From: Orobanche coerulescens
Taxonomy: Eukaryota; Streptophyta; Magnoliopsida; Lamiales; Orobanchaceae
DNA length: 64,000 nucleotides
Reading direction: 5' to 3'
NCBI GenBank assembly: GCA_033398695.1
Contig: CM065814.1
Location: 82,478,358-82,542,357 of the forward strand
Below, piece by piece: positions 9,197 through 64,000 of this stretch. Each line of letters starts with the position of its first letter. Position 1 is the stretch's first letter. The translations under genes and the position numbers were made by a program. The notes under the pieces are model-generated. The model searched no databases. It saw only the letters and a program-made list of their open reading frames with translations, and had not been told where the DNA came from.

Positions 9197-9570
9197 GTCA
9201 GGTCCATCGAGATGAACGGGCGCTAGACCAGTACGCGGATTATGGCCATGCGTGATGATTGTGCACGGGTGGTGTCTTATTGTTTCCTACCCTTTTTACC
9301 GTTTGTCAACTTGTAAACTAATAGAGGTACTCGGGTACTTGGGAGTTCTTGTTTATTCGAATTGTAACGTTATCTATTATGTTTGTGTTGGATGGTTGTG
9401 TTGTGTTTGACCGGTTGAACCAGGTAGATTATTTTGATTTGCGTCTTTAGGACGAGGTGTTATTTTGTTAAATTCGCGAGTCGATGAGTATGTTGGTCGT
9501 TCAGCCTGGTGGGTCTCATGTAGGGGTTCACAGCACTGTAATATACCTCGAATATCTTGAGGGTGTTACA

Positions 9571-23452: not shown

Positions 23453-23649
23453 TAGCGCAAGCTATTCTTCATGTGTAGCGTACGCTATCGATGCCTTTCT
23501 TACGTACGTAATGCATCCTTCGTTACGTATGTTATAGTGTTCAGGATTTCGGGCAGTAAAGTCTGGGTGACTCTTACGTACGTAATTGCTTGTACCTTAC
23601 ATTCGTAACATCATTAACGTACGTTAAGGCTTACTGCTTACGTACGTTA
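23453..23649 (+). promoter_or_regulatory. Two quartets of TACGTA/TAGCGT palindromes
   Basis: Starts are 23453, 23476, 23500, 23523 (23-24-23) and 23574, 23597, 23615, 23638 (23-18-23). The last ends 13 bp before TATTTATAT. The distal and proximal quartet spacings repeat those of 7899-8225 and 61410-61485. Confidence 0.9.
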
Positions 23650-25570: not shown

Positions 25571-25934
25571 GTTGCTGGGGAGCAATTCACGGGATCGTTA
25601 TGAAAGATGATGGAAGGCAACGATACTAATCACATGAAAACCAACGTTGGGTATTTGGTGTAGTATTGTTGTTTGTCTTTCCGTTAGGGTATTTTCCGTT
25701 TTATGGAAATATGGATGTATTCAAATTCCTACGTGGCTACGAGTTTTGAGAAAGAGTAATGTATTGTTGAGGTGTATGTTGTGGTAAAAGACCAAATCGG
25801 TCTAATGGTTCGTTATTTAGCCATGTTGGCATGTATTGTGTTGTTGTGTTTTCAGTATTTAGCCTGGTATATACTTACAGAGAGGGTCTGCGGCGCTGTA
25901 ATACTCCCGAATCGTTTGGGGGTCGTACAGAATA

Positions 25935-25946
25935 TGGTATCGGAGC
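25935..25946 (+). other. Primer binding site, first copy
   Basis: TGGTATCGGAGC differs by one base from the TGGTATCAGAGC used by LARD-1. It lies 6 bases after the degraded LTR end. Its leader keeps the U5-pairing strand at 26073-26085. Confidence 0.85.
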
Positions 25947-27601
25947 TTAAGTTGCGTAAACCTAGGCTGTCGGGTCGAGTTGTGTGTTGTCGGGTCTTGT
26001 CTTGTCTTATCTTGTCTTGTCAGATTTTGTCTGACTGAGTCGTGTCGCGATGCGTCATCTGAGATGTCGGTCGTGATTAGTATCGAGGTGCTGCGATCAT
26101 CTTCGTGCGATATGTGGATGTAAGTCTCCCTACTTTGCTGTGTCTCGTGTTATACGAGTTTATGTGACTTTGTGTTATCATGTGGAGTTTAAACGTAAAT
26201 TGTGAATACGTAATCCATGCTTGTTGATTCTCATGTTGTGGTGGAATAAAGAATGGTGCCGATGTGTATGTATGTATGTATGTATGTATATACACCTATG
26301 TATAAACCGTTTTACAGGAGTAATGTTTTGGTGTGGTTACTCAATGAAGGTTTATCAGCGTGATATTTTAAAAACATTAACTGTTTTGGGAAGTCACGTT
26401 AATTTTATTTCATTTCAAAACACCTTTCAAGAAGGGAAAGAGTTTGATTCCCGTATGATGACCTCGAGACCGAAAATTTCTGGAGAACACAAACTACTTA
26501 TATTTTATTTTAAATGTTTCTTGGAGAACTATTTTTTTGGCACATAGTTCATCTGATTAGAATGGCAGTCCAAATGCTATAGTACTTGGCTGGAATGGCA
26601 CCAGAAAATATGTTGTGTATGATTTCTCTTTTGTTTGCGTATTTTGGTATGAGTATGTGAGTGGTTGCTCTGTGCATTGTAGTTTTGTGGTATGTCGAGT
26701 TCGACCATACGGTCAATTTGCGAAGTCTCTCTCTCTCTCTCTCTTCAATGTCGTTTTGTAAGACTGTTGTCATGGTACGGTTTAACACTGTGTAGTTTCT
26801 GTTGGGTAATTCTTTAGAGTATGTGATGTGGATGTTTAGGTCGTGGACCCCGTGTTTGTGATTGAAATGTTATGATTGGGTCGTGGACCCCGTGTTTCGT
26901 TTTCGGAGTTGTATTTTGGAAAATTGATTTTTGGGCTGTGGCCCTAAATGTTTTCGAAAGGCTTGAAAATTCTTAAACCCCAAATGTTTTCAGAACTCCC
27001 GAGATCGTAAAATGTTCTGTAAGATGTATAATGGTTTTATTCCTACTTTTCATAATTCAAATTGTCTTGATCAAGAGATTTATCTCGGGAAGTATATTCA
27101 CGATTATTATTGTTCTTGGAGAATGTTGTGTATGGCCTGTATTTGTGTTTTATACTTTCACTAGGAAAACAGTGGAGTTTGGCTAATCCCCAAGTATTCG
27201 GGGGGTGGATGTCTGCATTGCGTCCAGGTACTTGCAGGTTGCTGGGGAGCAATTCACGGGATCGTTATGAAAGATGATGGAAGGCAACGATACTAATCAC
27301 ATGAAAACCAACGTTGGGTATTTGGTGTAGTATTGTTGTTTGTCTTTCCGTTAGGGTATTTTCCGTTTTATGGAAATATGGATGTATTCAAATTCCTACG
27401 TGGCTACGAGTTTTGAGAAAGAGTAATGTATTGTTGAGGTGTATGTTGTGGTAAAAGACCAAATCGGTCTAATGGTTCGTTATTTAGCCATGTTGGCATG
27501 TATTGTGTTGTTGTGTTTTCAGTATTTAGCCTGGTATATACTTACAGAGAGGGTCTGCGGCGCTGTAATACTCCCGAATGGTTTGGGGGTGGTACAGAAT
27601 A

Positions 27602-27613
27602 TGGTATCGGAGC
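27602..27613 (+). other. Primer binding site, duplicated copy
   Basis: TGGTATCGGAGC occurs again 1667 bp downstream of the first, after a second LTR end (GGTGGTACA at 27596). It arose with the tandem duplication. Confidence 0.85.
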
Positions 27614-28174
27614 TTAAGTTGCGTAAACCTAGGCTGTCGGGTCGAGTTGTGTGTTGTCGGGTCTTGTCTTGTCTTATCTTGTCTTGTCAGATTTTGTCTG
27701 TCTGAGTCGTGTCGCGATGCGTCATCTGAGATGTCGGTCGTGATTAGTATCGAGGTGCTGCGATCATCTTCGTGCGATATGTGGATGTAAGTCTCCCTAC
27801 TTTGCTGTGTCTCGTGTTATACGAGTTTATGTGATTTTGTGTTATCATGTGGAGTTTAAACGTAAATTGTGAATACGTAATCCATGCTTGTTGATTCTCA
27901 TGTTGTGGTGGAATAAAGAATGGTGCCGATGTGTATGTATGTATGTATGTATATACACCTATGTATAAACCGTTTTACAGGAGTAATGTTTTGGTGTGGT
28001 TACTCAATGAAGGTTTATCAGCGTGATATTTTAAAAACATTAACTGTTTTGGGAAGTCACGTTAATTTTATTTCATTTCAAAACACCTTTCAAGAAGGGA
28101 AAGAGTTTGATTTCCGTATGATGACCTCGAGACCGAAAATTTCTGGAGAACACAAACTACTTATATTTTATTTT

Positions 28175-28560: not shown

Positions 28561-29303
28561 AACTTGCACTGGTAGTAGATAAAGGAGAAAGAAGCAATAA
28601 ACTCCCTCAAAAACATAAGCTAAACCACACTTACACAAATCACTCAAGAACACAAGTGTGTTCTTCACACAAAAAGAAAAAGTATTACAAAGTGAGAAAA
28701 TATAAGATGAATGATGAATAATGATGGATCTAAGGGGTCTATTTATACACTTAAAGTCATATAATAGCTCCAAAACTCCAGCATTATTACATTAGATCGG
28801 ATCAATGCCAGCCATCCCCTCAATAATAGACCAAAAGTACAAAAAATTAGACAATGATCAATAATCTGTCAAGAGTTACGGCCGTAACTTGCAAATGTTA
28901 CGGCCGTAACATTGCTTCGGCTTTTTGTACACTGGTTGCTTTGTGAGTTACGTTTTCAGCCCAGAATTTCCTAGACTTTGCGTTTTTGCTCCAAATCTTC
29001 CCGGATGATAACTTTTGATATTTAACTCTGATTTTGAATTCGGAAAGACTGCCGAACTCGTCTCGGAAAACCCTACAACATGAATACATAAAAATTCAAC
29101 AAAGAGAATATTTTATACACATGTTATTTCTTGAGTAAATCAGTAATTCAATCCGATTAAGACTAAATTTACATCTTCATCTGATAAATAATAAAATTAT
29201 TAAAAGCTAATTAATTCTAAGCAAAAACGAGTAGACTAGCTCAATTATGGGTGAAATATATCGATACAAACCATGGATAAGTGTATAAAACTGACACTTA
29301 TCA
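28561..29303 (-). mobile_element. Fragment of a TGATAAGTG-type LTR
   Basis: On the minus strand it begins TGATAAGTGTCAG at 29303 and runs to about 28560. It has two perfect TTACGGCCGTAA motifs (28876 and 28898, 22 bp apart) and then GTATAAATAG (about 28737-28746), a good TATA box. The TGATAAGTG start is reminiscent of Tat/Ogre-type LTRs, which is recollection rather than proof. It interrupts or truncates the copia-2 right LTR at 29304. No coding sequence or TSD was found. Confidence 0.5.
28876..28909 (-). promoter_or_regulatory. Pair of TTACGGCCGTAA palindromes
   Basis: Two perfect 12-mers start 22 bp apart, about 130 bp upstream of a TATA box on the minus strand. This is the same motif class as LARD-1 and LARD-3 but in a different LTR type. 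Confidence 0.85.
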
Positions 29304-31059: not shown

Positions 31060-33515
31060 TGTAACACCCCAAACTAGGCGGATATTACAGTGTTGTGGAC
31101 CCCCGACTGGGACCCTCAAGCGAATGAAAATTAATGAATTAACAACGTAAATGTAGTACCGAACCACATCATATTACCAAGTACTCCGATGACGAGTCTA
31201 AGTATAATACACCCAGGAAGAATACTGAATACATGTATATTTTATGTGAAGATAAAATATACAACATTAAATGAAAATGAATATCAAAACGGAAATCTGC
31301 AGCGGAAATAAAGATGAAAAGACATGAATAACTGAAAAGGACTGGGGCCCACTACTAGTATCACTAGGACTCCTCGCCGTCAACGTTCTATTCCCATGAT
31401 TTTGCCTTGCCATGACCTGAAAACAAAATCCCCCAACGGGGTCAGTTACACAGAATAACAATCCTCAAGAGTTGAATAATTACAATCCTGTTGAAAACAT
31501 ACGCAATCAAACATGCTGTATGAATCAACTAACAATACGGCTCAAAGGATGGCGCCACACTACGCCCGGGATGGAAATGTGTCCGTGCACAAGCCACCAA
31601 CGAGTATCGATCGAATACACGTGTGGTCTTGTACCTAATCAGTCTCACGAAGTGATCGTCTCGTGTGCACAGTCCAATGTGAGGCCAACAACCAACACAC
31701 GGCTTTATATGTGCCCGACATGAAAATCTTACACATACCAACCGGCACGCCAGTATGACCCGGAATGCCACGATATAACAAAAGTGACATCGAAAATCAA
31801 TAATCACACACCAAGATGAAATGGTGGTGAAATGAATGACAGCTCAATGAAATGATTGGAACTGTCGTTCCTCGTGAATAAAGTGATTAAGTGACAATTA
31901 CAAGTCTCAATACGGTTAGTACTTTTTGAATGAATTATGATTATGAATGAACAACAACGAAAGGAATGAATATCCTTTTAACTGAGTAAGAATTAACTTA
32001 CACAACACCGGTGAACAATGTCCTTCCACGAACAACGTCCTAAATGAAATGTCGGTCGCTCGAACAACCTTGAATGACAATTACCAACAAACGCTCAGTA
32101 TACGTATCAACCACGATTATAACCAACTCAAACGTTGATACAACAATATCCGAACTCATTGAGGCATTCTAGCGAACACTTAGGAAACACACAACCTTTG
32201 AAAATATCCAATCCCGCATATATCAAAACCAAAACCAAAATGAGTATTTCAAACCATTAAAACACTTTCAATGATATCAATAATCCCATAGGAATTCATA
32301 ATTCGAGTTAACGACAACATCTAATCGAAAACCCCAAAAATATCAAAGTCAACCCCAAAGTGTTCTTGGAATCCAAAAATATATACCATTAAATTCGTAG
32401 GAATACATTTATCCAAGGTAGATAATCCATATATAACATATTCCAACAACAATCTAAGTTCATACGAAGAAATCGGAAGGAACAAATATCCGAAATTCTA
32501 GGTTCAAGAAATCATTACCTTTGATAATGTAATGGAGATGATGAAGTGATGATTAATCCAACTCAAAGACTTGAAGATGATGATTGCTGATTACACCTCG
32601 AAGAACACTCTCCAAAATGCCCGGAATCGCTCAAAACCGACGAAGAAAAGAAGAGAAATGACAAATGACGTTAAAGGACTGGACTGTCCTATATATAGCA
32701 AATCCCAGTTAGCGTGCGCTAGCTCCTATGCGTAGCGTGTGCTAACGGGTGTACTGGGTAATCCAGTACGCTCTGATCGCAATGGTAGCATGCGCTACGT
32801 ACCTCTTGTAGCGTGCGCTACCCCCTTTTATTAGCGTCCGTTAACATAAATGGTTAGCGTGCGCTAACGAATTATCTAATGCCCAGTACTGGAGTCCAGA
32901 ACCTCCTGTCCTCTGATCTGATCGCGGTAGCATGCACTACACACAGGCTTCAGCGTGCGCTACTTACACCGTTTAGCATACGCTAATCTACTCGTAGCGT
33001 GCGCTAGGCATTTATCCAATGTCGTCCAGTAGCCACTGGACTCTGCCTGATCCGTCCTTAGCGCGCGCTACACCGGCTGCATAGTGTGCGCTACACCGGC
33101 TGCATAGCGTGCGCTACCCCGACCTACTAGCACGCGCTACTTACCATTCGTAGCGTGAGCTACTTACAACCCAACTGCAGTCCAGTGCCTTCTGGACTGC
33201 CTGCTTGAAACATACTAGCGTGCGCTAGTGTTTAGAGGTAGCGTGCGCTACCCGTACTCAATTAGCGCACGCTAAAGAGAGTACGTAGCGTGCGCTACTC
33301 CTTACACACAGCACACTATGAAATGACAACGATGATAAACACTGCACGATTCTACAACTAGATTGGTGATGAATGACGATACAATTACTCTGAACGATAA
33401 ATACAATGATTGAATATGAGTGATAATTGATCATTAATGAGTGAAAATTACTGAGTGACAATTACTGAATGATAAATACTGAATGATAATGACTGAATTA
33501 CAACCGGGTATTACA
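31060..33515 (-). mobile_element. Solo LTR in minus orientation, TAGCGTGCGCTA class
   Basis: The 2456-bp insert has ends TGTAACACC (31060) and GTATTACA (33515), flanked by GCCTT (31055-31059 and 33516-33520). Removing it restores the copia-2 RT peptide MEQPKGF. On the minus strand: array (33297-32710), CTATATATAG (32689-32698), AAG|GTAATGATTTC donor (about 32518), GT|GTAAGT-type donor (about 31995), a CTGAC branch-like site, a CCCCGTTGGGG hairpin and TTTTCAG|GT (about 31414-31440), and end at 31060. No genes. Confidence 0.93.
32710..33297 (-). promoter_or_regulatory. Long array of TAGCGTGCGCTA motifs on a 23-bp grid
   Basis: Starts are 32710, 32733; 32786, 32809, 32832, 32855; 32928, 32951, 32974, 32995; 33059, 33082, 33105, 33128, 33151; and 33216, 33239, 33263, 33286. 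Most spacings are exactly 23 bp. The gaps between groups contain CCAGT/ACTGG inverted pairs (e.g. CCAGTACTGG at about 32883). The first motif is 12 bp from the TATA box. Confidence 0.92.
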
Positions 33516-43238: not shown

Positions 43239-44093
43239 TGTAATACCCGTAATTTCGATTTCCGGTAATTTCTTTTTTCGGCGAAAGTCCATTTTGATGA
43301 CTCTCTCATGACCATTTCGTCATTTCGAGAATGATTAATTCTCACTTTTTGTCATCCGAGTTCGTTTGGGTGTCGTTTTGTTGAGCTCCGTGCTTTTAGG
43401 CGACTTTTCCGCACTTGAGTTCGATTCTTGCGAATCTCATCCGAAACTGTTGTTTCAAGTTTCTCGTAAGTTCATTTAATGTTATTATTCATGTTGCGAG
43501 CTTTTGTTTGGTGTTTTAATTGGGTATCGTGTATTTCGGACGTTTTGGGCCATTTTTGTAATTTCCCGAAGTTTGGGGTAATTACTTCCGTTGTCGAATT
43601 TCGACACTTTGGGTGGTCGGAATCGTGTGTTCTCATAGTTCTTAGATTCTCTTTGCGAGTACTTCATAACCATATCTTCGATTCATATTCAGGTTCGGGT
43701 TTCGGGGTCGTCCGGGCCGTCGGAGTGGCCACGGCCGAGTCATGGCCGGAGCAGGGCCTGGCCTGGCTGAGTTACGGTCGTAAGATGCCGGTTACGGCCA
43801 TAAGATGCCGGTTACGGCCGTACGTGCTCGGAAGACTTGGCGGGATGAATGCCAGTTACGGCCGTAAGACGTGATTGGGTACGGCCGTACGGGCGCTGGG
43901 CATCTTCAGGACGAAGGCCGGTTACGGCCGTAATGTGTGCCAGTTACGGTCGTAATGTGTGCCGGTTACGGCCGTAATGTGTGCCAGTTACGGCATGTAT
44001 TGTGTTGTTGTGTTTTCTGTATTTAGCCTGGTAGATCCTCACGGAGAGGGTCTGCGGCGCTGTAATATTCCCGAACGGTTTTGGGGTGTTACA
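43239..44093 (+). repeat. LARD-3 left LTR, internally deleted
   Basis: It starts TGTAATACCCG. The U3 head and palindrome array run to about 43995, then the sequence jumps to the last ~100 bp of the LTR (ATGTATTGTGTTG), ending GGTGTTACA at 44093. The right LTR shows both flanks of the missing ~2.2 kb, and the junction lies in a CGGC shared by both. TATA box, intron-like signals and U5 pairing strand are all lost from this copy. Confidence 0.92.
43772..43999 (+). promoter_or_regulatory. TTACGGCCGTAA array, LARD-3 left LTR
   Basis: 12-mers start at 43772, 43792, 43812, 43856, 43879, 43922, 43944, 43966 and 43988, i.e. 20-23 bp apart or a double step. The last is cut by the deletion. Confidence 0.88.
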
Positions 44094-46503: not shown

Positions 46504-47223
46504 TGTAATACCCGTAATTTCGATTTCTGGTAATTTCATTTTTTTCAGCGAAAGTCCATTTTGACGACTCGCTCATGACCGTTTCGTCATTTCCAGAATG
46601 ATTAATTCTGCACTTTTTGTCATCCGAGTTCGTTTCGGTGTCGTTTTGTTGAGCTCCGTGCTTTTAGGCGACTTTTCCGCACTTGAGTTCGATTCTTGGG
46701 AATCTCGTCCGAAACTATTGTTTCGAGCTTCTCGTAAGTTCATTTAATGTTATTATTCATGTTTAGAGCTTTTTTTTGGTGTTTTGATTGTGTATCGTGT
46801 ATTTCGGACGTTTTGGGCCATTTTTGTAATTTCCCAAAGTTTGGGGTAATTACTTCCGTTGTCGAATTTCTACACTTTGGGTGGTCGGAATCGTGTGTTC
46901 TCAAAGCGCTTAGATTCGTCTTTGCGAGTACTTCGTAACAATATCTTCGATTCATACTCAGGTTCGGGTTTCGGGGTCGTCCGGGCCATCGGAGTGGCCA
47001 CGGCCGAGTCATGGCCGGAGCAGGGCCTGGCCTGGCCGAGTTACGGCCGTAAGATGCCGGTTATGGCCGTACGTGCTCGGCAAACTTGGTGAGACGAATT
47101 CCAGTTACGGCCGTAAGGCATGATCGGGTACGGCCGTACAGGCACTGGGCATCTTCCGGACGAAGGCCGGTTACGACCGTAATGTGTGCCAGTTACAGCC
47201 GTAAGTGTCCGACAGGTGCTGGA
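46504..47223 (+). repeat. LARD-3 right LTR, first piece (U3)
   Basis: U3 head and start of the ACGGCCGT array (47041-47205). It breaks off at CTGGA, the LARD-2 target site, and resumes at 55530. Confidence 0.92.
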
Positions 47224-47593
47224 TGTAATATCCGCGATTTCGATTTCCAATAATTTTTTTCTGGTGTAATTCCATCTTAGCAACTCTATTGTGACCGTTT
47301 CCTCATTCCGAGAATGATTAATTCTACACTTTTTATCATCCGAGTTCGTCTCGGTGTCGTTCTGTTGAATTCCGTGTTCTTAAGCGACTTTTCCACGTAT
47401 GAGTTTGACTTTGTAAAATCACCATTAATTATTGGAAACTCTAAAAATTCTGAATCTTTTCAATATTATAGAGAATCAAGTTAGCTTTCTAATGGTTCAA
47501 ACGGTGAGTCAATCGGAGTCTGGACAAAGGAGTTATGATCGAAATAGCTAAGGCTGCACCATGTGCCTTTTTGTGCTGGAGAGGGCTGCACCG

Positions 47594-47691
47594 CAGGCCG
47601 CGACCCCTTTTGGCCGGGCCGCGGCACAAAGGCAGTGTACTGGGCAGTTTTTGGCCGTGGGCCGCGGCACACTCATCCTGTGCCGCGGCAC
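47594..47691 (+). promoter_or_regulatory. GTGCCGCGGCAC-type palindrome array
   Basis: 12-mers start at 47594 (degenerate), 47616, 47659 and 47680 (perfect), i.e. 22, 43 and 21 bp apart. The TATA-like CTATATCAG lies 15 bp downstream. The right LTR repeats it at 53121-53218. Confidence 0.8.
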
Positions 47692-48247
47692 ACAGTACAG
47701 TTTCGCCTATATCAGCGTTTTCTTGTGGAATCATCCTCATTTTCATCACTTTCCTTCTTCCTCTCCTCCTTGGGCGATTTGTGGGCGATATTTTGGGTGA
47801 TTTAGCATCATCAAACTCAAATAATTTCATCTTCTTCAAGTTGTGGTGTGGATTAACAACATGTTTGTGGATTCTTCATCCTAATCAAGGTAATTTCTTG
47901 AAATCTCCTAAAATTTGATTTTTGGGAGTTTTGGCTTTGATTTCATGTTCCGTCCGAATTTATTGAATCGGTTGATGTTTGTAAACATTATTAATCATGT
48001 TCTATGGATTGTATATCCATATCTTCGATTCGTTCAATCCGATTGATGATTCTTAAGTTCTTGAGGAACTTTGAACATTTAGTGTTCGATTAAATGTCTC
48101 AAAGAGTTTCCTTCGATCATTGTGTTATTTTCGTTCGATATTGTGTTATTGAATGAATTGTATTTCATTCAAGGTTGTTCGAGCGCTTATATTTATAGGA
48201 GGACGCCGTTCGTTGTTCGTGGAAGGATTTCATCGCTTTCGGTTGAG

Positions 48248-49803
48248 GCAAGTTTTATACTTGTACTAGTCAATGAGATTAATGTTATCATATATGTATG
48301 AATGTGTTGTATCATTCCGAGACTTAGTCTCTTCTTGAATTCATTGATATTAAGAGATCGTTCGATACGATACCTTTCGGCAATTATGCCAAATGTTTTT
48401 ATTGTTCGTTAATGGCCGGTTCAAGGCATTGTGATACTCGTTGTTAATATTATTATCGATCACCAGTTCGCGGTATCGATGTATCGATCGTTGTTGTTGA
48501 TATTAATGTCGATTTAAGTCGTCGTTGTAATCATTGCTATTAATGTTGGAGTTTTGTCAATGATGTTGTTTTGGCTGATTAAAGGCGTTGACATATTCAT
48601 TTCTCTTCTTCGTTGTCGGTAACCGATTAAAGGTGCCGAGACATCCTTCGTATCATTGTTATCTATTGGCCGTTCTAAGGCAATCGAAGTGTTCAATCAT
48701 TTATTGTATCATTGTTATCGATTGACCGTTTTAAGGCAATCAAGGTATTGAATCATCCGCTGCATCATTGTTATCGGTTGGTCATTCTAAGGCAATCGAG
48801 GTATTGAATTGGGGCTGTCGAGGATAGTTCCCATCCGTTGTGTCGTTGTTATCGATTGACTATTCTAAGGTGCTCGAGGTATTGAATTGGGACTGTCGAG
48901 TATGATGCCCATCCGTGAGACATCATTATCGTGTTGGCCGACTCAAGGTAGCACACTAACATTCTCGTGAATTCGGTAATCTACGAACCGTTGTCGTTTG
49001 TGATTAATTATATTTTGGAGGCTAGTCTCGGCTAGTGCTTATGGGTAAGTTTGGAGCTTGAACCTTCGCGGTTGGCTTCCCAACACCTATAACTCAGTAG
49101 CTCACAGTCGTGTTAATGATCTTATGGGTAAGCTTGGGGCTTGAACTTTCGCGGTTGGCTTCCCAACACCTCCAACTCAGTAGGTCACGGTCGTGTTTAT
49201 GATCTTATGGGTAAGTTTGGGGCTTGAACCTTCGCGGTTGGCTTCCCAAAACCTACAACTCAGTAGGTCACGGTCGTGTTTATGATCTTATGGGTAAGCT
49301 TGGGGCTTGAACCTTTGCGGTTGGCTTCCCAACACCTACAGCTCAGTAGGTCACGGTCGTGGTTATGATTTTATTAGCCCTCATTAACTATAGCTTCGGG
49401 CTGTTCCGGTTTCATGTGATTGTGATATTTGATAGCTTCGGCTGAGTGGCTTTCAGGCCTTTGTGATTTTCTTGATAATTTCATTGGAGCCTTCGGGCAT
49501 TGTGATTCATAATTAATTCAGTTCTGGTTTGGTTCATGTTGTGTAATTCATTGTGGTACTCTATAATTATGATTCGCCGTTGGGCATTTACGTTCTAACC
49601 TATCGAACAGGTATTAATAGTATGCCGTGGGCATAGTATTTCACGAATGCTCGGTTCTTACATTGGTTTGTGAGCATCTCATATTGTTATTATCATTGTA
49701 CCGTTTCATTCTGCCTTTGGATGCATATCATGTTATACATGTATTTGATATTCATTATCTGGATGACTGACCCCGTGGGGCGGAACATGTTTTCATGTTT
49801 TAG
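48248..49803 (+). other. Putative GC-AG intron, LARD-2 left LTR
   Basis: GAG|GCAAGTT to TTTTAG|GTGC, with CTGAC about 33 bases before the acceptor and a CCCCGTGGGG hairpin between. The corresponding right-LTR positions are 53775-55167. Inferred. Confidence 0.45.
49037..49370 (+). repeat. Four 83-bp tandem units in the LARD-2 left LTR
   Basis: Each unit opens CTTATGGGTAAGCTTGG, continues through TTCGCGGTTGGCTTCCC and closes with CTCAGTAGGTCACGGTCG. The right LTR has only two (54567-54730), which accounts for nearly all of the 163-bp LTR length difference. Confidence 0.93.
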
Positions 49804-50170
49804 GTGCTTGCGAGGAGAGAGCTGAGACACAGGGGCATGATGATGGCGACGAGGCATTCGAGCGATACTAGTCCGAGTTGTTCATGGTGGTCAGTCAGTT
49901 GGAGTGTTCTTCAGTCTCTCAGTCATTGTCATTATGTATTACCCGAGCAGATGCTCGTGGATGTTGTTGTATTTTATTTTTGGCCATGTAGGCCCATTGT
50001 TGTCATTGAAATTACTTATCGGAATATTGTGTCGGATATCATGGTAGGGACTATGATTTCCCCTTGTTGTTTAATTTAATGTATTTTAGTCATGTTCGCC
50101 TGGTGGATCTCCTGGCGTGGGGTCCACGGCACTGTAATAACCCAATAGGGTTTGGGGGTGTTACAGAAGA

Positions 50171-50182
50171 TGGTATCAGAGC
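50171..50182 (+). other. LARD-2 primer binding site
   Basis: TGGTATCAGAGC, 5 bases after the LTR. The following hairpin reads GGGTTGTGAGATACCC, a compensated version of the LARD-1 one. Confidence 0.95.
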
Positions 50183-52750
50183 TTTTGGGTTGTGAGATAC
50201 CCTGATATGTGAGTTATGTGGCTCTACCGATGTGGTAGTAGTGTGACTGTCAGGTTATGACAATCTGGACAGTCGGGTTTTGTGAGTCGTAATATTAGTA
50301 CGACTGCACGAGTCATTCATTCATCGAGTCGTCGTCAGTTGGGACTAGTATCGTGAGAACTCGAAGCTTCGTATGACCTGTGTAAGGACTCAATTCTCTT
50401 TATGTTCATACATTCATCATGTCATTAATTGTTCATGCTTTGTTGAAACCTATATGTGATATTAGTGTTATGATTGATTCATGACTAATTGTTTTGGAGC
50501 ACATGTGACTTGTGTAAGCATTAAGGATCAACTCATTCATCAGTTAATAATCCTCAATCATCATTTTGATCTCATCACTCAGTTAATTCATTCATCACGC
50601 AGTCAATATCATTCATCACTCAGTTAATTCATTCATCACTCAGTTAATTCATTCATCTCTCAGACAATATCATTCATCACTCAGTTAATTCATTCATCAC
50701 TCAGTTAATTCATTCATCACTCAGTCAATATCATTCATCACTCAGTTAATTCATTTATCACTCAGTTAATTCATTCATCACTCAGTCAATATCATTCATC
50801 ACTCAGTTAATTCATTCATCACTCAGTTAATTCATTCATCACTCGTTAATTCATTCATCACTCAATTAATTCATTCATCACTCGATCGATATCATTCATC
50901 ACTCGATTAATTCATTCATCACTCATCAATATAATTCATCACTCGATTAATTCATTCATCACTCGGTTAATTCATTCATCACTCGATCAATATCATTCAT
51001 CACTCGATTAATTCATTCATCACTCGATTAATTCATTCATCACTCGCTTAATTCGTTCATCACTCATCAATATCATTGCTCGCTTAATTCATTCATCACT
51101 CGATCAATTCCTTCATCACTTAGTCAATCTCATTGTTGATTAATTCATTAATCACTCACCAATCTCATTGTTCACCAATTCATTCATCACTCGATCGATC
51201 TCATTGCTCGATTAATTCATTCATCACTCACCAATTTCATTGTTCATCAATTCATTCATCACTCATCAATCTCATTGTTCAGCCAATTCATTCATCACTC
51301 AGTTAATCTCATTGTTCAGTTAATTCATTCATCACTCAGTTAATCTCATTGTTCAGTTAATTCATTCATCACTCAGTCAATCTCATTGTTCAGTCAATTC
51401 ATTCATCACTCAATCAATCTCATTGCTCAGTCAATTCATTCATCACTCAGTTAATCTCATCGCTCAGTTAATTCATTATCACTCAGTCAATCTCATTGTT
51501 CAATTAATTCATTAATCATCCAGTCCATCTCACGGTTCAGTTGTTGATCTTGTGAATCAAATTTTCAACCTTATTAACTTGTTCAAGGTAATCATTTCAG
51601 GAATTTCGTCAGATAGTCTTGTTACCTCACTTGATCTTTCATGCGATCTTATCATATTCCGGCGTCATGTCGACGATCGTTTTATTGCATTATTAATGCA
51701 TTCATTGTGTTAGAGCGTGTATGATCATTGTTATCATTCAATCTCGTAATCATAATGAAATCTTTATACGAGATCTGTAATTATCACGTGACTTTCGTGC
51801 CTCGGTATGGAAAGAGTTGTCAGAGGGACATCGGACTCCGACGTCCAAGAGGTCATTTTCTAGTCGTCTTCGTGCTGGGAGAGCATCTTCATCTCAGACG
51901 ACGAGTTCGACTGTTGTTTGCTTTAACTGTGATACAGTAGGACATTCATCACCGGTTTTGAGCAAGTTAATTCTTGCTCGGTAATAGTATAATCATTCAT
52001 TTCATCGCCGTTCAATCATTCGCATAAGTCATTCATCATATATCAACCACGTTGAGACTTATAATTATCAAACTAACCATTCACTTCACGGGGAACAATG
52101 GTTCCAATTATTTCATTTGAGTTATCACTCATTGCGTTATTGGTTCACCTCAGTGTGTCATTCTTGATCCTTGTCGGATTTTTAATCATTTATCATTCAG
52201 CATAATCAGTCTCGTTTTTGGTAACCTTTCGGGGTCATATTAAGCGGTGAGTTCAGATTTGAGTCTTCGTTGAATCGTTGGGATCGAGGAGATCGATGAT
52301 ATGGAGGATATCGATGTTGGGTACATTTGAAATGTAGCCTTGTATTTCGGATGACTGTATAACTCAATCCGTAATAATGTATCATGGTTGTGGATCATTT
52401 ATTGTTGATCTATTTTATAATGATCGTATTTGAGAATCTTGAGATTTTGAGATCGTTTGATGCATTCCTTGTGGTGTTGTACCGAGATTTCGTGATAATC
52501 TAGGTGATTGTTTATTGTGATTTGAGACGTCAAGTCATGGGGACTTGGGCGTGCGATAGATATGGTTCCGAGGACTATATGTGCATTGCTGTTCTTCTTT
52601 GGAGGTGAATCAGTGTTTGTATGGGCATCCGATGCCGATGAGAAACGAGCTTTCAGTTCTGGTGTATCTCATTGAGTTTTCCTGGCGGGATATTGCTTCT
52701 CCCAACTTGTTTTAAGTTTCGAGACGAAACTTCGTTTAAGGGGGGTAGTA
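50183..52750 (+). mobile_element. LARD-2 internal domain, non-coding
   Basis: The leader strand pairing with U5 (50342-50353, 50360-50365) is followed by a ~1-kb minisatellite (50560-51545). Then comes ~1.2 kb of unique non-coding sequence; the 70-residue open frame at 51728 resembles no family I know. The last 100 bp (GTGTATCTCATTGAG onward) is homologous to the ends of LARD-1 and LARD-3 interiors. Confidence 0.85.
50560..51545 (+). repeat. 1-kb minisatellite of ATTCATTCATCACTC units
   Basis: The first half consists of 20-bp units (ATTCATTCATCACTCAGTTA) alternating with 21-bp variants (TCAATATCATTCATCACTCAG). The second half has ~38-bp compound units adding a TCTCATTGTTCAG step. All frames contain stops because the period is not a multiple of three, so it is not coding. 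It is C/T- and A-rich with few G on this strand. Confidence 0.95.
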
Positions 52751-55529
52751 TGTAATATCCGTGATTTCGATTTCCAATAATTTTTTTCTGGTGTAATTCC
52801 ATCTTATCAACTCTATTGTGACCGTTTCCTCATTCCGAGAATGATTAATTCTACACTTTTTATCATCCGAGTTCGTCTCGGTGTCGTTCTGTTGAATTCC
52901 GTGTTCTTAAGCGACTTTTCCACGTATGAGTTCGAATTTGTAAAATCACCATTAATTCTTGGAAACTCCAAAAATTCTGAATCTATTCAGTGTTATATAG
53001 AATCAAGTTAGCTTTCCAATGGTTCAAACGGTGAGTCAATCAGAGTCCGGAAGAAGGAGTTATGATCGAAATAGCTAAGGCTGCACCATGTGCCTTTTTG
53101 TGCTGGAGCGGGCTGTACCGTGGGCCGCGGCCCCTTCTGGCCGGGCCGCGGCACAAAGGCAGTGTACTGGGCAGTTTTTGGCCGTGGGCCGCGGCACACT
53201 CATCCTGTGCCGCGGCACACAGTACAGTTTCGCCTATATCAGCGTTTTCTTGTGGAATCATCCTCATTTTCATCACTTTCCTTCTTTCTCTCCTCCTTGG
53301 GCGATTTGTGGGCGATATTTTGGGCGATTTAGCATCATCAAACTCAAATAATTTCATCTTCTTCAAGTTGTGGTGTGGATTAACAACATGTTTGTGGATT
53401 CTTCATCCTAATCAAGGTAATTTCTTGAAATCTCCTAAAATTTGATTTTTGGGAGTTTTGGCTTTGATTTCATGTTCCGTCCGAATTTGTTGAATCGGTT
53501 GACGTTTGTAAACATTATTAATCATGTTCTATGGATTGTATATCCATATCTTCGATTCGTTCAATCTGATTGATGATTCTTAAGTTCTTGAGGAACTTTG
53601 AACATTTAGTGTTCGATTAAATGTCTCAAAGAGTTTCCTTCGATCGTTGTGTTGTTTTCGTTTGATATTGTGTTATTGAATGAATTGTATTTCATTCAAG
53701 GTTGTTCGAGCACTTATATTTATCGGAGGACGCCGTTCTTTGTTCGTGGAAGGATTTCATCGCCTTCGGTTGAGGCAAGTTTTATACTTGTACTAGTCAA
53801 TGAGATTAATGTTATCATATATGTGTATGAATGTGTTGTATCATTCCGAGACTTAGTCTCTTCTTGAATTCATTGATATTAAGAGATCGTTCGATATGAT
53901 ACCTTTCGGCAATTATGCCAAATGTTTTCATTGTTCGTTAATGGCCAGTTCAAGGCATTGTGATACTTGTTGTTAATGTTATTATCGATCACCGGTTCGC
54001 GGTATCGATGTATCGATCGTTGTTGTTGATATTAATGTTGATTTAAGACGTCGTTTTAATCATTGCTATTAATGTTGGAGTTTTGTCCTTGATGTTGTTT
54101 TGGCCGATTAAAGGCGTTGACATATTCATTTCTCTTCTTCGTTTTCGGTAACCGATTAAAGGTGCCGAGACATCCTTCATATCATTGTTATCGATTGGCC
54201 GTTCTAAGGCAATCGAAGTGTTCAATCATTCATTGTATCATTGTTATCGATTGACCGTTTTAAGGCAATCGAGGTATTGAATCATCCGATACATCATTGT
54301 TATCGGTTGGCCATTCTAAGGCAATCGAGGTATTGAATTGGGGCTGTCGAGGATAGTTCCCATCCGTTGTGTCGTTGTTATCGATTGACTATTCTAAGGT
54401 GCTCGAGGTATTGAATTGGGACTGTAGAGTACGATGACCATCCGTGAGACATCATTATCGTGTTGGCCGACTCAAGGTAGCATACTAACATTCTCGTGAA
54501 TTTGGTAATCTACGAACCGTTGTCATTTGTGATTAATTATATTTTGGAGGCTAGTCTCGGCTAGTGCTTAAGGGTAAGTTTGGGGCTTGAACCTTCGCGG
54601 TTGGCTTCCCAACACCTACAACTCAGTAGGTCACGGTCGTGTTTATGATCTTATGGGTAAGCTTGGGGCTTGAACCTTCGCGGTTGGCTTCCCAACACCT
54701 ACAGCTCAGTAGGTCACGGTCGTGGTTATGACCTTATTAGCCCTCATTAACTATAGCTTCGGGCTGTTCCGGTTTCATGTGATTGTGATATTTGACAGCT
54801 TTGGCTGAGTGGCTTTCAGGCCTTTGTGATTGTCTTGATAATTTCATTGGAGCCTTCGGGTATTGTGATTCATAATTAATTCAGTTCTGGTTTGGTTCAT
54901 GTCGTGTAATTCATTGTGGTACTCTATAATTATGATTCGTCATTGGGCATTTGCGTTCTAACCTGTCGAACAGGTATTAATAGTATGCCGTGGGCATAGT
55001 ATTTCACGAATGCTCGGTTCTTACATTGGTTTGTGAGCATCTCGTATTATTATTATCATTGTACCGTTTCATTCTGCCTTTGGATGCATATCATGTTATA
55101 CATGTATTTGATATTCATTATCTGGATGACTGACCCCGTGGGGGCGGAACATGTTTTCTTGTTTTAGGTGCTTGCGAGGAGAGAGTTGATACACAGGGGC
55201 ATGATGATGGCGACGAGGCATTCGAGCGATACTAGTCCGAGTTGTTCATGTTGGTTAGTCAGTTGGAGTGTTCTTCAGTCTGTCAGTCATTGTCATTATG
55301 TATTACCCGAGCAGATGCTCGTGGATGTTGTTGTATTTTATTTTTGGCCATGTAAGCCCATCGTTGTCGCTGAAATTCCTTATCGGAATATTGTGTTGGA
55401 TATCATGGTAGGGACTATGATTTCCCCTTGTTGTTTAATTTAATGTATTTTAGTCATGTTCGCCTGGTGGATCTCCTGGCGTGGGGTCCATGGCACTGTA
55501 ATAACCCAATAGGATTTGGGGGTGTTACA
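52751..55529 (+). repeat. LARD-2 right LTR (2779 bp)
   Basis: It aligns with 47224-50165 throughout with scattered substitutions and two fewer 83-bp units. It has a perfect GTGCCGCGGCAC at 53207-53218, donor at 53775 and acceptor at 55167. Confidence 0.94.
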
Positions 55530-57913
55530 CTGGACAGATTTTTAGATGAATGCCGTTTACGGCCACAAGGGCCTGCCGAGTATGGCCGTATGGGCCGAGT
55601 TATGGCCGTAAGGCACTGCCGGTTACGGCCGTAAGTGTCCGGCAGTGTCCGGCTATATAAGGCCTGGCAGCCCGTTTTTGTTCATTTCTTCACTTTTCTT
55701 GCGGCTATCGGACGGGTGCGACGGGAAATAGGGTTCTTGGTCGATTCTAATCGATTCCAAGGCATTTTGGAAGATTCTTGTTGATTATATCAACATCTAA
55801 TCCGTGTGTTTCGTCGAATCAAGGTATATTTCTTGATTTTCCTTCAAGTTGACTTTTTGGAGAATTTGTTCTTGATTTCGATTCTAGTGCGATTTTGATA
55901 CATCGGTTAGTATGATGTTATTAATCGTGTTCTATAGATTGTATATCCATATATCGGGTTTGTTTAACTCGATTGACGATTCGAGTGTTCTTGGGAATTA
56001 TTGAACATTTAATGTTCGATTAAATGTCCCATTGAGTTTTCCTTCAATAGACTGATGGGTTTTTTGTTGTTCCTGGTCTTGGTTCTCGTTGTGATAGTGT
56101 TTTCGTTGTGTCTTCCGGAAGTTGTAGGTTTTCGGAGTGTCCCGGTCGAGCCGTGTTCGTCGGAGTACTTGCTCGTGGTATCGAGTCAAGTATCTTGCCC
56201 ATACTTTTCATGTTTCGTAGATGGAATCGTTGATAAATGATTTTATGTGCAATCCGAATGTTTTAATGAACTTTTAAAAAGATCGGTATGTTCTGGATAA
56301 TTGTTGTCTTTCAAAAGATAACTCGTATGCTTCGGGGATTAATGTTCTTTCGTAATATGTGCGTTAGTTTCGTATATTGGAAGATGTTAAACATATTTAG
56401 TGAATTTAGTAGACCGTAATTATTTGCCGAGGATTGTGTATTGATATGTGTAATTGTTCGGTGAATATGTGACGTTGTGTGATATTAGTTGTTATTCCTT
56501 CGTGAGGAGGTTGTGACGCTTGGTGTTGTTTGGTATTGGTATTTGCTTGTGGTTGTGTGACATTAGTTGTGACTGTACGTCGACTAAAGTGGCCATTCTA
56601 GCGAAGTACCTAGAATTTGTATGCATATTCTAGTATTCGAATTATGTCTTCCCGTGGCGTTGTGGATGATATGTGTATGTTCACCTAGGGACGGTCTGAC
56701 GGGACCTCTAGGGATACGTATTGCCGTGAGTGTGCGTATCACGAACTGTGGTTAACCACCCAGGGATGTCCGACGGGGCTCTGCGGGGTGCGACGGCCGT
56801 GAGTCTCGTACCAACGGTTAACTTTGAAATGTTGTGTTGGAGAACTGTGATTTTTGGCGCATATTTCGTCTGATTAGAATGGCAGTCCAAATGATATCGT
56901 ACTTAGCTGGAATGGCACCAGTAAATATGTTGTGTGTGATTTGTCCCTTGACTGTGATAATTTGGTAAGGGTACGTGAGTCCTGTGGTTGCTCTGTATAT
57001 TGTAGCTCTGCGCTGTGTTGAGTTCGACCGTATGGTCAAGTTGCAAAGTTGTGCTCTCTATTGTCGTTCTGTGAGACCGTTGTCGTGGTAATGTTTGACA
57101 CGGTGTAGTTTATGTCGGGTTATTCTTGTGAGTATGTGATGTGAATAAGTTGATTCACGCAACCCCATGCTTGTGGTTGGAATGTTATGATTGGGTCGTG
57201 GACCCTGTATTTTGTTATCGGAATCGTATTTTGAAATAAATGATTTTTGGGCGGTGTCCCTAAGTGTTTCGAAAGGCTTGAAAATTCTTAAACCCCAAAT
57301 GCTTTCAAAACTCCCGAGATCGTAAAACGTTTTGTAAGATGTAAATGATTCTATTCCTATCTTTCATAATTCAAACTGTTTTGATCAAGTGAATTATCTC
57401 GGGAAATAAATTCACGATTTCTATATTCTTGGAATATGATATGTATGGCTTGTCCTTGTATTTATACTTGTACTAGCAAAATAGTGGAGTTTTGCTAACC
57501 CCCGAGTATTCGGGGGGTGGATGTCTGTTTTGCATCCAGGTACTTACAGGTTGCTGGGGAGCAATTCACAGGATCGTTACGAAGGGTGATGGAAGATGGC
57601 GATACTAATCACATGAAGACTGGTGTTGAGTCTTTTGGCGACGTCTTGTTGTTTTGTCCTTCCGTTGTGTCTATTATTCCCGTTTTACGGGAATGTTGAT
57701 TTATGTTAGCCCCTGCGTGGGTACGAGTTGCGAGAAAGAGTAATGTATGGTTGATGTGTATGTTGTGGTAAAAGACCAAATCGGTCTAATTGTTCATTAT
57801 TTAGCCATATCGGCATGTATTGTGTTGTTGCGTTTTCTGTATTTAGCCTGGTAGATCCTCACGGAGAGGGTCTGCAGCGCTGTAATATTCCCGAACGGTT
57901 TGGGGGTGTTACA
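55530..57913 (+). repeat. LARD-3 right LTR, second piece
   Basis: It resumes with the remaining ACGGCCGT array (about 55555-55634), CTATATAAGG (55653-55662), AAG|GTATATTTC (about 55822), a mutated second donor GAG|TCAAGTA (56186), and two minisatellite units with CTGACGGGA or CCGACGGGG (56690-56790). A CCCCCGA/TCGGGGG hairpin (about 57500-57517) and acceptors CAG|GT (57539, 57549) follow. The U5 pairing strand is 57600-57612 and the end is GGTGTTACA at 57913. Confidence 0.92.
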
Positions 57914-58706: not shown

Positions 58707-58783
58707 GTGCCGCGGCACACCTGGGCTGAGCCGCGGCACACTGCCGAGCCCTGGGAGCGAATTTTGGGCCTGTGCCGCGGCAC
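58707..58783 (+). promoter_or_regulatory. GTGCCGCGGCAC palindromes
   Basis: Starts are 58707 (perfect), 58728 (GAGCCGCGGCAC) and 58772 (perfect), 21 and 44 bp apart, with TATA-like CTATATCTG 16 bp downstream. Confidence 0.82.
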
Positions 58784-59524: not shown

Positions 59525-59988
59525 GCAAGTATACATTTATGATTATGCGTTCTCGACCTTGAAAGTATGAAATATTGATGATATGATTATTTCTAGCCAC
59601 TCCGGACGGGCCTATGGTCCTCTCGAGGTTTCGTAGCCTCTGGTGCGATTCCATGGTTGATATGAACGAACCGTTTCTACGGCATTCATATGAAATAATG
59701 TTGGCATGTAATGAACGAACCGTTTTGACGGCATTCCTACATGTAACGGCGTATGATATGAACGAACCGTTTTTTCGGCATTCACATACGTCTTGAGATT
59801 TTAGTCATTCCGGAATACTAGTCTTAAATTGATGAATTGACGGATATTGATGAATTGACGGATATTGATGAATTGACGGATTACATTTACTTTATTGTCG
59901 AGGAGTATTATGTTTCATATTGTTATACTTGCACTAGCTATTCGACGGCTAACCCCTTTATGGGGGAAATATGTTTCATGTATTTCAG
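59525..59988 (+). other. Putative GC-AG intron
   Basis: AAG|GCAAGTA to GTATTTCAG|GT, 464 nt, with GCTAAC and a CCCC/GGGG hairpin about 25-40 bases before the acceptor. Inferred. Confidence 0.45.
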
Positions 59989-60894: not shown

Positions 60895-61934
60895 TGTAAT
60901 ACCCCGATTTTTCGGATATATTTTTTTTTTTTTTCGTTTATATATTGGATATCGTGGATGGTTAATTATGCTCGAGGACGTTGTGAACGTATGACAATGT
61001 TATTGAATTGAGTATATGTATTGATTTTGCCGTATGCTCGTATTTGGTATGTCATGACTTTGGACAGGAATTGTTGAAATTGGCTAAGAATGGAATTATT
61101 ACGTACGTTAATAAGGTGAGATTACGTACGTAATATTGGCATGGTTACGTACGTTAAGGCTAAGGTATTACGTACGTAACGAAGGCATCGGACAGAACCG
61201 AGTCCTGGTCGGCAGGTGGGACCCTGTTTCGGCACTTTCGGCGGAGGATGTTGACAGGTGAGTCAACGTACGTGTTACGTACGTTATACAGGACGTGTTA
61301 CGTACGTAACGCAACCATTGTACCGTAGCAAGTCAACTGGTATATTACGTACGTTTTATGGTATGGGTTACGTACGTAATGGACTGCACGGAATGAGACA
61401 GTGAGTTGGTTACGTACGTTATGGATATTGGATTACGTACGTTAAAGTTGTTACGTACGTTAAGAAAGGACACTTACGTACGTAATGAGAGTGCAATTTA
61501 TATATTGAAGTGTTGCCTTTCATTTCTCTCACGATCCTTTGAGATATTTCTCTCCAAAACTCGTCCCTCTTTACTTTTAAGAGTGTTCTAAACGCTTTTA
61601 ACATGATTGTGAGCTTGGAATCATGGAATTAGAGCTTGGTTATGGAACTATTGTTGATTCTTGAAGTGATTTCTTGTGTTATCCATATTCTACGAGGTTT
61701 ATGTTGAAGGAAGATAATGATATGCTTTGAATATGTTGATTATGATTATGGAATCATAGAGATCTTGATGTTCTTGAGGCCATATGATGACTATGATGAT
61801 TTAATGATTCTTGGAATGGAGTTCAATTATTCTTTCTTCGTGGTTCATCCATACAAGGTAATCCTCGTATCCCTTTGATAGTGGCTCATTTTTTTTCTTT
61901 TTGGATTACTACTTGGGAGGGAGTATGTTGGGAA
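60895..61934 (+). mobile_element. Right-hand LTR start, different type from the left LTR
   Basis: TGTAATACCCCG follows the polypurine tract directly, so it occupies the right-LTR position. Yet beyond the terminus it does not match 58332-60362, and its array is TTACGTACGTAA instead of GCCGCGGC. TATA-like TTTATATATTG is at 61496, and AAG|GTAATCC at about 61857. No coding sequence. Confidence 0.8.
61099..61485 (+). promoter_or_regulatory. Twelve TTACGTACGT palindromes in 23-bp doublets
   Basis: Starts are 61099, 61122, 61145, 61168; 61275, 61298; 61345, 61368; and 61410, 61433, 61451, 61474. Every doublet is exactly 23 bp apart; the last quartet is 23-18-23. The array ends 11 bp before TTTATATATTG. 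This is the cleanest array in the window, with nearly all motifs perfect over 10 bases. Confidence 0.95.
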
Positions 61935-62262: not shown

Positions 62263-64000
62263 TGAAGATTGTAGTATTCGGATATTGTTGATGTCATTTT
62301 GGATATTCTTGGTCTATGGTATACATTTCGGAAGGAAGTCCGGATAGAGGTATGTTTTGTGGTAATCGTACATAGAAGATTGTGTACGGGAAGGTATTCG
62401 GTATTGAGGTATTATATGGTATCATGTGATAATGCTATGCGAGATTTATTGGAATCGTAATAAGAGATTTCGGATGTTGATATGATTATTGAGATCTTCT
62501 TCATATGACGATAAGGGTTCTGTTGTGATTCTTGAGGTTGTATGAATGACATGATGAAGAAAATGGTAACATGGAGATATATACCTCGGATATGTTGTTC
62601 TGAACGTGATTTCGGATATTTCATGTTTTTGAAGAACTCTTGAATTATACGAGGTGATGAAATTTTTTTTTTAGATGTGTTGATGTTTTGAAAATGAATA
62701 TGGAATATTCATATCTAGAGCTAAACTATGTGTTGGAAATAATATTCGTATAGGAAATACGAATGTGATTATGAGCTTGATGAGACTATTATTCATCTCT
62801 GAATTTGGAAGCCCATACGTACGGAGCAAATATTCAAATCGAATGATTGGAGTGTTTGATAACCTTAAAATATGATTATCTATAATGCTGAACTAATTGG
62901 ATGGTTAGAATTAACGATGATCATCGGAAAATTTTAACTACGGATTTACGAGAAGGGAACCTTGTCAATTCGTATTTAAGAATTGAGTTTGGAACCGATA
63001 ATATTTAGACCCTTATTATTGGTCCGAATTGGTTGCTGATATGATCATCGGATTTCGGCTCGTATTGTGGACATGGATTCGTGAGGGTCTGAGTTGGACA
63101 GTTCAGACTATGATTGGTCGAGATATGGTGAAACGATTGAGTTCGTGGTTTGGTGGTATTGATATTGGTCGTCATCGAACCGGTTGATTATCAACCCTTC
63201 GTTTTACAGTAAGATATGATGTTTGATCGTAGATTATGACTTTTGTGTTGCGGTTAAGGTTGAAGGGTTCGTAGATTAACTTGGTCGAGACTCGTAAGAC
63301 GAAATCGACTGAATTGGTAACAGTTCGTTGTATTGATATCGAGGCAAGTTTTATACTCGTACTAATCAATGAAACTAATGTTATTGTGTAGGCGTACGAA
63401 TGTGTGTATCATTTCGGGACTTGGCCTCTTTATGATTGTATTGATATCAGGGGATCATTGATATGACGCCCGTCGGAAAATTATGCCAAATGTTAGTGTT
63501 GTTTGTAAAAGGCCGGTTCGAGGCATTACGATACTTGTTGGCAAGTTGCTATCGATAGCCGGTTCGCGGTATCGATGTATCGATTATTTTTGTTCGCGAT
63601 TAATGTCGTTCTGAGACATCGTTGAATCCTTGTCGTCGAATTGGAACTGTTGCTATGATGTTGCGTTAACCGATTGGGGACGTTTGATATATCCTTTTGT
63701 CATCTCCGTTTCGGTGGTCGGTTTAAGACACCGGGACATCTATTCTATCGTATCATTGATTATCGATTGATCGTTCTAAGGTAATCGATATATTGAATTG
63801 GGATTATCAAAGATAATTCCCATCTGTTGTCAAAAAAATATTCTCATCCGTTGTATCATTGTTATCGATTGGCCATTCTACGGTAATCGAAGTATTGAAT
63901 TGGGACTGTCGAGGATAGTTCCCATCCGTTGAATTATTATTGTCGTGTTGGCCGATTCAAGGCAGCACACTATTATTCTTGTAAACTCGGTAATTTTGTG
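62263..64000 (+). repeat. LTR-like sequence related to LARD-2 LTR, to window end
   Basis: No coding region. 62263-63330 is not matched elsewhere in the window. From 63341 (GAG|GCAAGTTTTATAC) to the edge it follows the LARD-2 LTR (48245 onward): AAATTATGCCAAATG, GCCGGTTC, and the ATCGATTG/ATCGA hairpin units. It may be the rest of the 60895 LTR, which would then combine a TACGTA promoter with LARD-2-type R-U5. Confidence 0.6.

Follow-up and report, generated by a model that had tools for sequence, protein, structure and literature searches.

The stretch of DNA analysed here, 64 kb in length and called the window below, carries seven arrays of a 12-bp near-palindrome whose sites are often paired at a start-to-start distance of exactly 23 bp and lie upstream of TATA-like boxes. 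We read these, with reasonable but limited confidence, as the U3 promoter arrays of one LTR-retrotransposon lineage, made of sites for cooperating activator dimers and now present in decayed copies that include at least two solo LTRs; this reading draws on the sequence of one 64-kb window, whose LTR families are not fully independent.

The window consists of nested, decayed LTR retrotransposons, the long LTRs of which begin with TGTAATA and end with TTACA. A Pfam search of 30 of its stop-to-stop frames (35 frames of at least 110 aa are present in the window) gave copia-type domains along with generic matches to an integrase core, some of them below the curated cut-off, and the window contains no tRNA and no Rfam match at gathering scores. 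These element types, taken with general background on such elements, make the window look like plant DNA. The copia-type domains are not tied to any array-bearing LTR: none of ten frames beside these LTRs, all decayed frames, matched Pfam. A Ty3/gypsy chromovirus (Tekay-like), whose mark would be a Ty3-type integrase or a chromodomain between the LTRs, is a candidate affiliation, as the LTR start and polypurine region may resemble those of such elements. TG...CA ends together with a short target-site duplication are found for two solo LTRs, one at 7371–9570 (L7, forward strand, 2200 bp, 5-bp flanking repeat AATAC) and the other at 31060–33515 (L32, reverse strand, 2456 bp, GCCTT), and for the element at 47224–55529 (CTGGA). 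L32 has a piece of a copia-type reverse transcriptase on either side, and was inserted into that element. Further repeats were noted in the window: the LTR 3′ ends at 12225–12260, 31060–31090 and 44060–44093 carry an imperfect inverted repeat, TGTAATAT..CCC...GGGGTGTTACA, resembling an LTR terminus; a direct repeat of about 1.67 kb at 24843–28174 (98.9% identical) is a recent local duplication overlapping LTR-derived sequence; and a 47-bp tandem repeat (2.6 copies) at 59658–59784 includes a TTACGG-like piece, its period being unlike that of the arrays.

The near-palindrome has the form T[AT][AG]CGNNCG[CT][AT]A, that is, two inverted half-sites T[TA][AG]CG. A scan of the whole window, allowing at most one mismatch and demanding at least four of six symmetric pairs, returned 102 matches, whereas 20 first-order Markov sequences averaged 6.8 and never exceeded 13. 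All except four (2223, 4754, 9801 and 15209) fall into 12 arrays, which contain the other 98: seven of the class described so far, here class A (77 sites, 8–18 strict sites per array), and five of a class G built on TTACGGCCGTAA (21 sites). Every motif start quoted in the first-pass annotation is present in the sequence, ten of them with one mismatch to TWRCGNNCGYWA (7922, 7946, 7969, 23453, 23523, 32786, 33082, 33128, 33151 and 61345). Besides the strict list, a longer one was used, to which seven degenerate sites were added by hand (8149, 8214, 13803, 17598, 17617, 17882 and 32928); it keeps degenerate sites on or near the grid and drops off-grid ones, the relaxed matches left off being those at 8181, 17543, 17725, 17739, 17760, 21691 and 23653. 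The tests of spacing, quartets and TATA distance were repeated with the strict list; the identity between L7 and its 13.5-kb relative, the likeness of doublet members, the mismatches, the half-sites, the comparison of LTR tails and the CAGN6CTG test are based on the longer list only.

Array A61 (61099–61485, forward strand) comprises 12 sites with successive intervals of 23, 23, 23, 107, 23, 47, 23, 42, 23, 18 and 23 bp, and is followed by the box TATATA at 61499–61504 on the same strand. Its LTR, L61 (60895–62263, forward), begins with TGTAATACCCCG after a polypurine stretch, and its 3′ bound is approximate: sequence like an LTR end, but lacking the final TTACA, runs to about 62263, and farther on, 63341–63931 resembles the inside of the LTR at 47224. 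Within L7, array A7.9 (7899–8225, forward) has 10 strict and two degenerate sites (8149 and 8214), arranged as three quartets (23, 24, 23; 23, 22, 23; and 23, 18, 24 bp) before a TATAAA box. Array A13.5 (13490–13814, forward), with 11 strict sites and the degenerate 13803, likewise forms three quartets (23, 24, 23; 23, 20, 23; and 23, 19, 23 bp), here before TATTTA, and its LTR is related to L7 (72% over 1 kb). A23.4 (23453–23649, forward; intervals 23, 24, 23, 51, 23, 18 and 23 bp; TATTTA) belongs to the LTR L23, which starts at about 22935. The remaining three arrays are on the reverse strand. A17.6 (17575–18009) precedes a TATAAA box and has a possible LTR start, TGTAATAT, at 18296 on that strand; A32.7 (32710–33297), in L32, has 18 strict sites (19 with the degenerate 32928), mostly TAGCGYRCGCTA, and a TATATA box; and A21.4 (21437–21757), the least regular, fits poorly, and owes its assigned orientation to TATAAATA, which is found on the minus strand 54 bp beyond the last site scored. 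The proposal that these are promoter arrays in LTRs is supported: all seven lie upstream of TATA-like boxes, and in LTRs wherever the boundaries are readable.

Among the 70 adjacent start-to-start intervals of the class A arrays (strict sites), 38 are exactly 23 bp, the next commonest being 24 (six), 18 (three) and 51 bp (three). Random placement of the same numbers of sites over the same spans gave a mean of 1.9 and a maximum of eight 23-bp intervals in 5000 trials, in which the largest count at any distance was 11, and each array is significant alone for 23 bp (p from 5 × 10−5 to 5.5 × 10−4). The exact 23-bp grid that had been claimed holds for the doublets, whereas the inner and inter-group intervals vary. 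When the strict sites are split at intervals above 30 bp, 11 quartets result, in which the outer interval is 23 bp in 22 of 22 cases and the inner one in three of 11, the others measuring 18–24 bp (Fisher p = 1.2 × 10−5; 2.8 × 10−4 without A13.5). The quartets were found post hoc and their looser inner interval is carried mainly by related LTRs, A21.4, A32.7 and A61 alone giving 10 of 10 against three of five (p = 0.10); with the seven hand-added degenerate sites, 23 bp is found in 28 of 30 outer and four of 15 inner intervals. Within a doublet the two sites agree at 10.03 of 12 positions, against 9.65 for shuffled partners (p = 0.0036, 37 doublets), and five of the six doublets of A61 have a first site ending in GTTA or GTTT and a second ending in GTAA. 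As the outer intervals are fixed, the inner ones loose and the doublet members alike, the rigid unit appears to be a 35-bp doublet, with doublets joined more loosely. The exact doublet patterns had no match in viral contigs and prokaryote genome contigs, a non-plant set that is uninformative on plants.

The first-pass annotation had seen in the spacing a selection on helical phasing, and in this precise form the idea is not supported: with 10.5 bp to the turn, 23 bp makes 2.19 turns and leaves the second site rotated by about 70 degrees, and intervals of 18, 20, 22 and 24 bp also occur inside groups. Since paired sites on B-DNA would thus not lie on exactly the same face, the spacing is better accounted for by a contact geometry than by helical phase. 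At 10.5 bp the fit of the intervals between groups is weak, with R = 0.55 for the full set of 17 (p = 0.006) and R = 0.52 for the 13 distinct values (p = 0.03); it was not taken as evidence of phasing, the best period in a scan of 8–25 bp being 11.5.

If the spacing were a relic and not a constraint, it could have come from an ancestral 23-bp unit, a 12-bp site plus an 11-bp gap, that was amplified in the manner of a minisatellite and whose gaps later decayed, an origin that we consider unlikely. It would predict the observed resemblance between doublet members, and one identical gap pair does occur within 33059–33105 of A32.7 (CACCGGCTGCA, at 33071–33081 and 33094–33104). Class G arrays do look as if produced in this way, as their gaps recur (TGTGTGCCRG and GATGCCGG); these arrays are partly ordinary tandem repeats, with 91% matches in Tandem Repeats Finder at 43917–43994. 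In class A, however, the gaps are near random within arrays while the sites stay alike. The 11-bp gaps of 23-bp doublets are 0.286 identical within arrays, compared with 0.264 ± 0.012 after letter shuffling (p about 0.05), and only A32.7, with its duplicated pair, has p below 0.1 (0.028). Likewise, the 11 positions flanking the sites on either side carry at most 0.17 bits, against 0.9–2.0 inside, although the information inside the motif is partly built in by the search pattern. The variability of the gaps noted previously is thus confirmed for class A, that one pair excepted, and this within-array gap identity largely excludes that 23-bp units were duplicated with conserved gaps; tandem duplication therefore does not explain the spacing, one pair apart. 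Moreover, the doublet distance has not been shifted by indels, and even a duplication origin would still require later selection on sites and spacing.

Comparisons between LTRs also bear on our preferred reading, that sites and spacing were under constraint. Between L7 and its 13.5-kb relative, motif bases are 85% identical (123/144) and array gaps 67% (119/178), with 76% (305/403) in the upstream and 69% (168/245) in the downstream part of the LTR. The promoter-proximal layout of 51, 23, 18 or 19, and 23 or 24 bp, followed by the TATA box, is common to the LTRs of A7.9, A13.5, A17.6 and A23.4, and L61 differs in having 42 in place of 51. In the tails of these five LTRs the sites are 77–87% identical and the gaps 35–61%, versus 24–31% for shuffled sequence. 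Judging from these alignments, the five tails probably share ancestry, with spacing and sites kept while the gaps drifted far apart. As the tails share some gap sequence, the LTR families are only partly independent tests; nevertheless, the retention of sites and spacing while the tail gaps diverged supports a constraint.

In all seven class A arrays a TATA-like hexamer follows the start of the last strict site at no more than 54 bp, and in two of them (A13.5 and A23.4) it has the loose form TATTTA. That the arrays lie directly upstream of the TATA box, as had been proposed, holds at 24–25 bp for four of them (25 bp in A17.6 and A61, 24 bp in A23.4 and A32.7), but with strict sites the distance is 51 bp in A7.9, 47 bp in A13.5 and 54 bp in A21.4. 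Counting the degenerate sites 8214 and 13803, each of which is on the grid and has one mismatch and three of six symmetric pairs (below the strict cut-off), places the box at 27 and 24 bp in the first two of these, and so at 24–27 bp in six of the seven arrays. The chance of such a hexamer in a given 5-bp slot is about 1.5% per array, for a slot that was picked post hoc.

The spacers between groups contain a second dyad, CAGN6CTG, which was recognised post hoc: eight of the 12 copies in the whole window are located there, compared with a mean of 0.25 and a maximum of three in 2000 trials with shuffled spacers, and CAG-N-CTG dyads with any of the other gap lengths between 0 and 15 reach three copies at most in the spacers. 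These copies lie at a similar distance from the start of the previous site. On the forward strand it is 30 bp for the copy at 13590–13601 and 31 bp for those at 13718–13729 and 23554–23565; on the reverse strand it is 31 bp at 17660–17671, 31 bp at 32897–32908 (counted from a degenerate site), 32 bp at 33027–33038, 33 bp at 33183–33194 and, once, 22 bp at 32764–32775. The dyad was not found in A21.4 or A61, and A7.9 has only a one-mismatch copy.

From these features a mechanism can be proposed in which each palindrome would bind one protein dimer, and the two dimers of a doublet, in contact over the constant 11-bp gap, would bind with cooperativity. A second factor, at CAGN6CTG, may then take part in the loose grouping of doublets, and the last dimer would sit close to TFIID at the TATA box. 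The expected result is a steep switch, by which the LTR would fire only in the presence of plentiful activator and, possibly, of sites whose CpGs lack methylation. Selection would have acted while the elements were active, the present copies being in decay. In enhanceosome-type composite promoters, activator dimers are held at fixed spacing, the intervening bases are free, and the whole is read cooperatively; the arrays resemble them in sequence layout, with rigid site spacing and free gaps. Concerning the binder, the half-sites of the longer list comprise 48 TTACG, 44 TAGCG, 36 TAACG and no TTGCG among 168. TTGCG half-sites are typical for NAC proteins, whose elements have half-sites of the TTNCGT type, and the NAC protein suggested earlier is a candidate binder, one lead among several. 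The ACGT core suggested earlier as a bZIP signature is not general: it is present in many sites of the other arrays and in none of the 19 sites of A32.7.

The palindromes might instead act at the level of RNA or chromatin, through transcript hairpins that feed small RNAs, or through CpG sites that serve as a methylation target or shield; we give this a slim chance, and a small-RNA role could coexist with a DNA-binding role. Array RNA folds more stably than its dinucleotide-shuffled counterparts (z = −5.7 for A61, 100 shuffles; −7.6 for A32.7, 20 shuffles), although any mutually complementary set of palindromes folds well, and folding requires neither the exact 23-bp doublet nor the TATA register. 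CpG transitions make up 28 of the 40 site mismatches in the longer list, which is what the decay of methylated CpG would produce and fits decay in methylated DNA after insertion. The observed/expected CpG ratio is 1.2–2.0 in class A arrays versus 1.06 for the window, and 1.13 (L7) and 1.14 (L61) downstream of the arrays. The arrays do not stand out clearly as CpG islands, as the LTR parts upstream of them are as high (1.45 in L7 and 2.0 in L61). Small RNAs have also been linked to the palindromes of maize Sirevirus elements, according to the available part of one report (PMC10760457).

Related LTRs in the window carry other palindromes, CGGCCG (class G) and CCGCGG (class C), all on the forward strand. 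Class G has no fixed distance of 23 bp. The array at 3873–4119 has short intervals of 19–23 bp and a TATATA box 31 bp after the degenerate site 4108 (54 bp from 4085 if 4108 is left out), and the array at 43772–43977 is the one with the partly conserved gaps TGTGTGCCRG and GATGCCGG. A further array, in the LTR at 46504, is split by the element at 47224–55529 into a first part at 47041–47204 and a second at 55557–55634, the latter with TATATA 31 bp after its last site start. The class C sites, GTGCCGCGGCAC, form doublets 21 bp apart, at 47616–47691 (intervals 43 and 21 bp, TATATC at 28 bp), in the partner LTR at 52751 (53122–53218; 21, 43 and 21 bp, TATATC at 28 bp) and at 58707–58783 (21 and 44 bp, TATATC at 29 bp). 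Over the five LTR promoters of classes G and C that were measured, the TATA offset is 28–31 bp, using the degenerate 4108.

Some further features of these sequences were recorded. The element at 47224–55529, which looks complete and is inserted inside the class G palindrome array, has LTRs of 2942 and 2779 bp that are about 96–97% identical in aligned pieces, and the 5-bp repeat CTGGA; its 2.6-kb internal region includes a 20-bp-type tandem array (50572–51497) and gave no Pfam match in the three frames tried, and the element is perhaps non-autonomous. Class G arrays contain another dyad, CTTCGAGCGAAG or CTTCNGGACGAAG, in a larger inter-site interval (3956–3967, 43904–43916 and 47153–47165); three of the four window copies of CTTCN4-5GAAG are in these arrays, making it a possible counterpart of CAGN6CTG. 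Finally, TTACGGCCGTAA forms the centre of two long perfect palindromes at 28874–28913, one of 16 bp and one of 20 bp, which are spaced by 22 bp in sequence that was not recognised as belonging to the LTRs studied.

The classes meet in LTRs that are homologous at both ends. L23 (class A) and the LTR at 46504 (class G) align over the first 386 bp (79%) and over 1752 bp of the 3′ part (82.5%), and their middle, with array, TATA box and leader, stays unaligned (word size 7, E-value 1 × 10−4, at least 60 bp), which suggests, at the level of these alignments, a switched promoter module. Similarly, the 5′ ends of the class C LTRs at 47224, 52751 and 58332 align with class G LTRs at 78–85%, and those at 47224 and 52751 align again downstream of the TATA box (75–77%), with a different palindrome in between; these two are the LTRs of one element, and the classes beyond A are drawn from few LTRs. 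From class to class, the kind of palindrome, its spacing and the TATA offset seem to vary in concert (23 bp with TACGTA-like sites, 21 bp with CCGCGG and 19–23 bp with CGGCCG, at TATA offsets of 24–27 versus 28–31 bp). Tentatively, and with more doubt than conviction, LTR promoters may thus switch a whole regulatory cassette of palindrome, doublet spacing and TATA offset between LTRs homologous at both ends. If so, each class would have its own dimeric factor, either a host paralogue or encoded by the element, in an arms race over promoter recognition.

The joint change of class and spacing between related LTRs would also be expected if each array recruited a dedicated factor that strips methylation, as VANC does for VANDAL elements, possibly encoded by the lineage, with different factors for classes A, G and C. 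The targets of VANC are not the same in related elements; they build up in non-coding DNA and are likewise short, according to the accessible part of the VANC study (PMC5735166). However, VANDALs are DNA transposons, unlike the LTRs discussed here, and in that same part VANC motifs are tied to tandem repeats, with no palindromes, exact spacing or TATA register described (PMC5735166). In addition, the 30 frames scanned with Pfam, a part of those in the window, whose elements are decayed, hold no candidate gene for such a factor. Sequence-specific anti-silencing seems to us very improbable.

The closest known parallel is found in Sirevirus LTRs, which carry high-copy, short palindromic repeated-motif (RM) boxes, most of them with CpG, clustered upstream of the TATA box (PMC2829016). 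In the 3′ LTR the RM copies start 200–400 bp after the junction, and their consensus differs between elements (Bousios et al. 2010, PMC2829016); RMs are described as confined to Sirevirus, the classic elements used for comparison having none (PMC2829016), all of this according to the portion of the paper available. Class A arrays are similar in being high-copy palindromes upstream of TATA in an LTR, and it is in their palindromes that these LTRs are like those of Sirevirus. The CGG-CCG core of the RM boxes is present in class G (TTACGGCCGTAA) and absent from class A sites, and the same portion of text describes no fixed spacing, doublets, TATA register or second dyad (PMC2829016). Hence, as far as this source extends, palindrome arrays upstream of TATA are known from Sirevirus, whereas the 23-bp doublets, the TATA register and the second dyad are not described there. 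Within the literature covered, which includes few subscription papers, no report of fixed 23-bp palindrome doublets in plant LTRs was found, and the available parts of PMC11302176, PMC6911290 and PMC11656987 contain nothing on such arrays.

Provided that the spacing truly is constrained, this genome's LTRs offer natural variation on a single composite promoter, and the binding protein, the geometry between dimers and the rule for the TATA distance could be read from them and put to the test. Switching of class between sister LTRs would, in turn, show how retrotransposons change the factor on which they depend, a change that bears on their escape from silencing and on the gain of new expression patterns.
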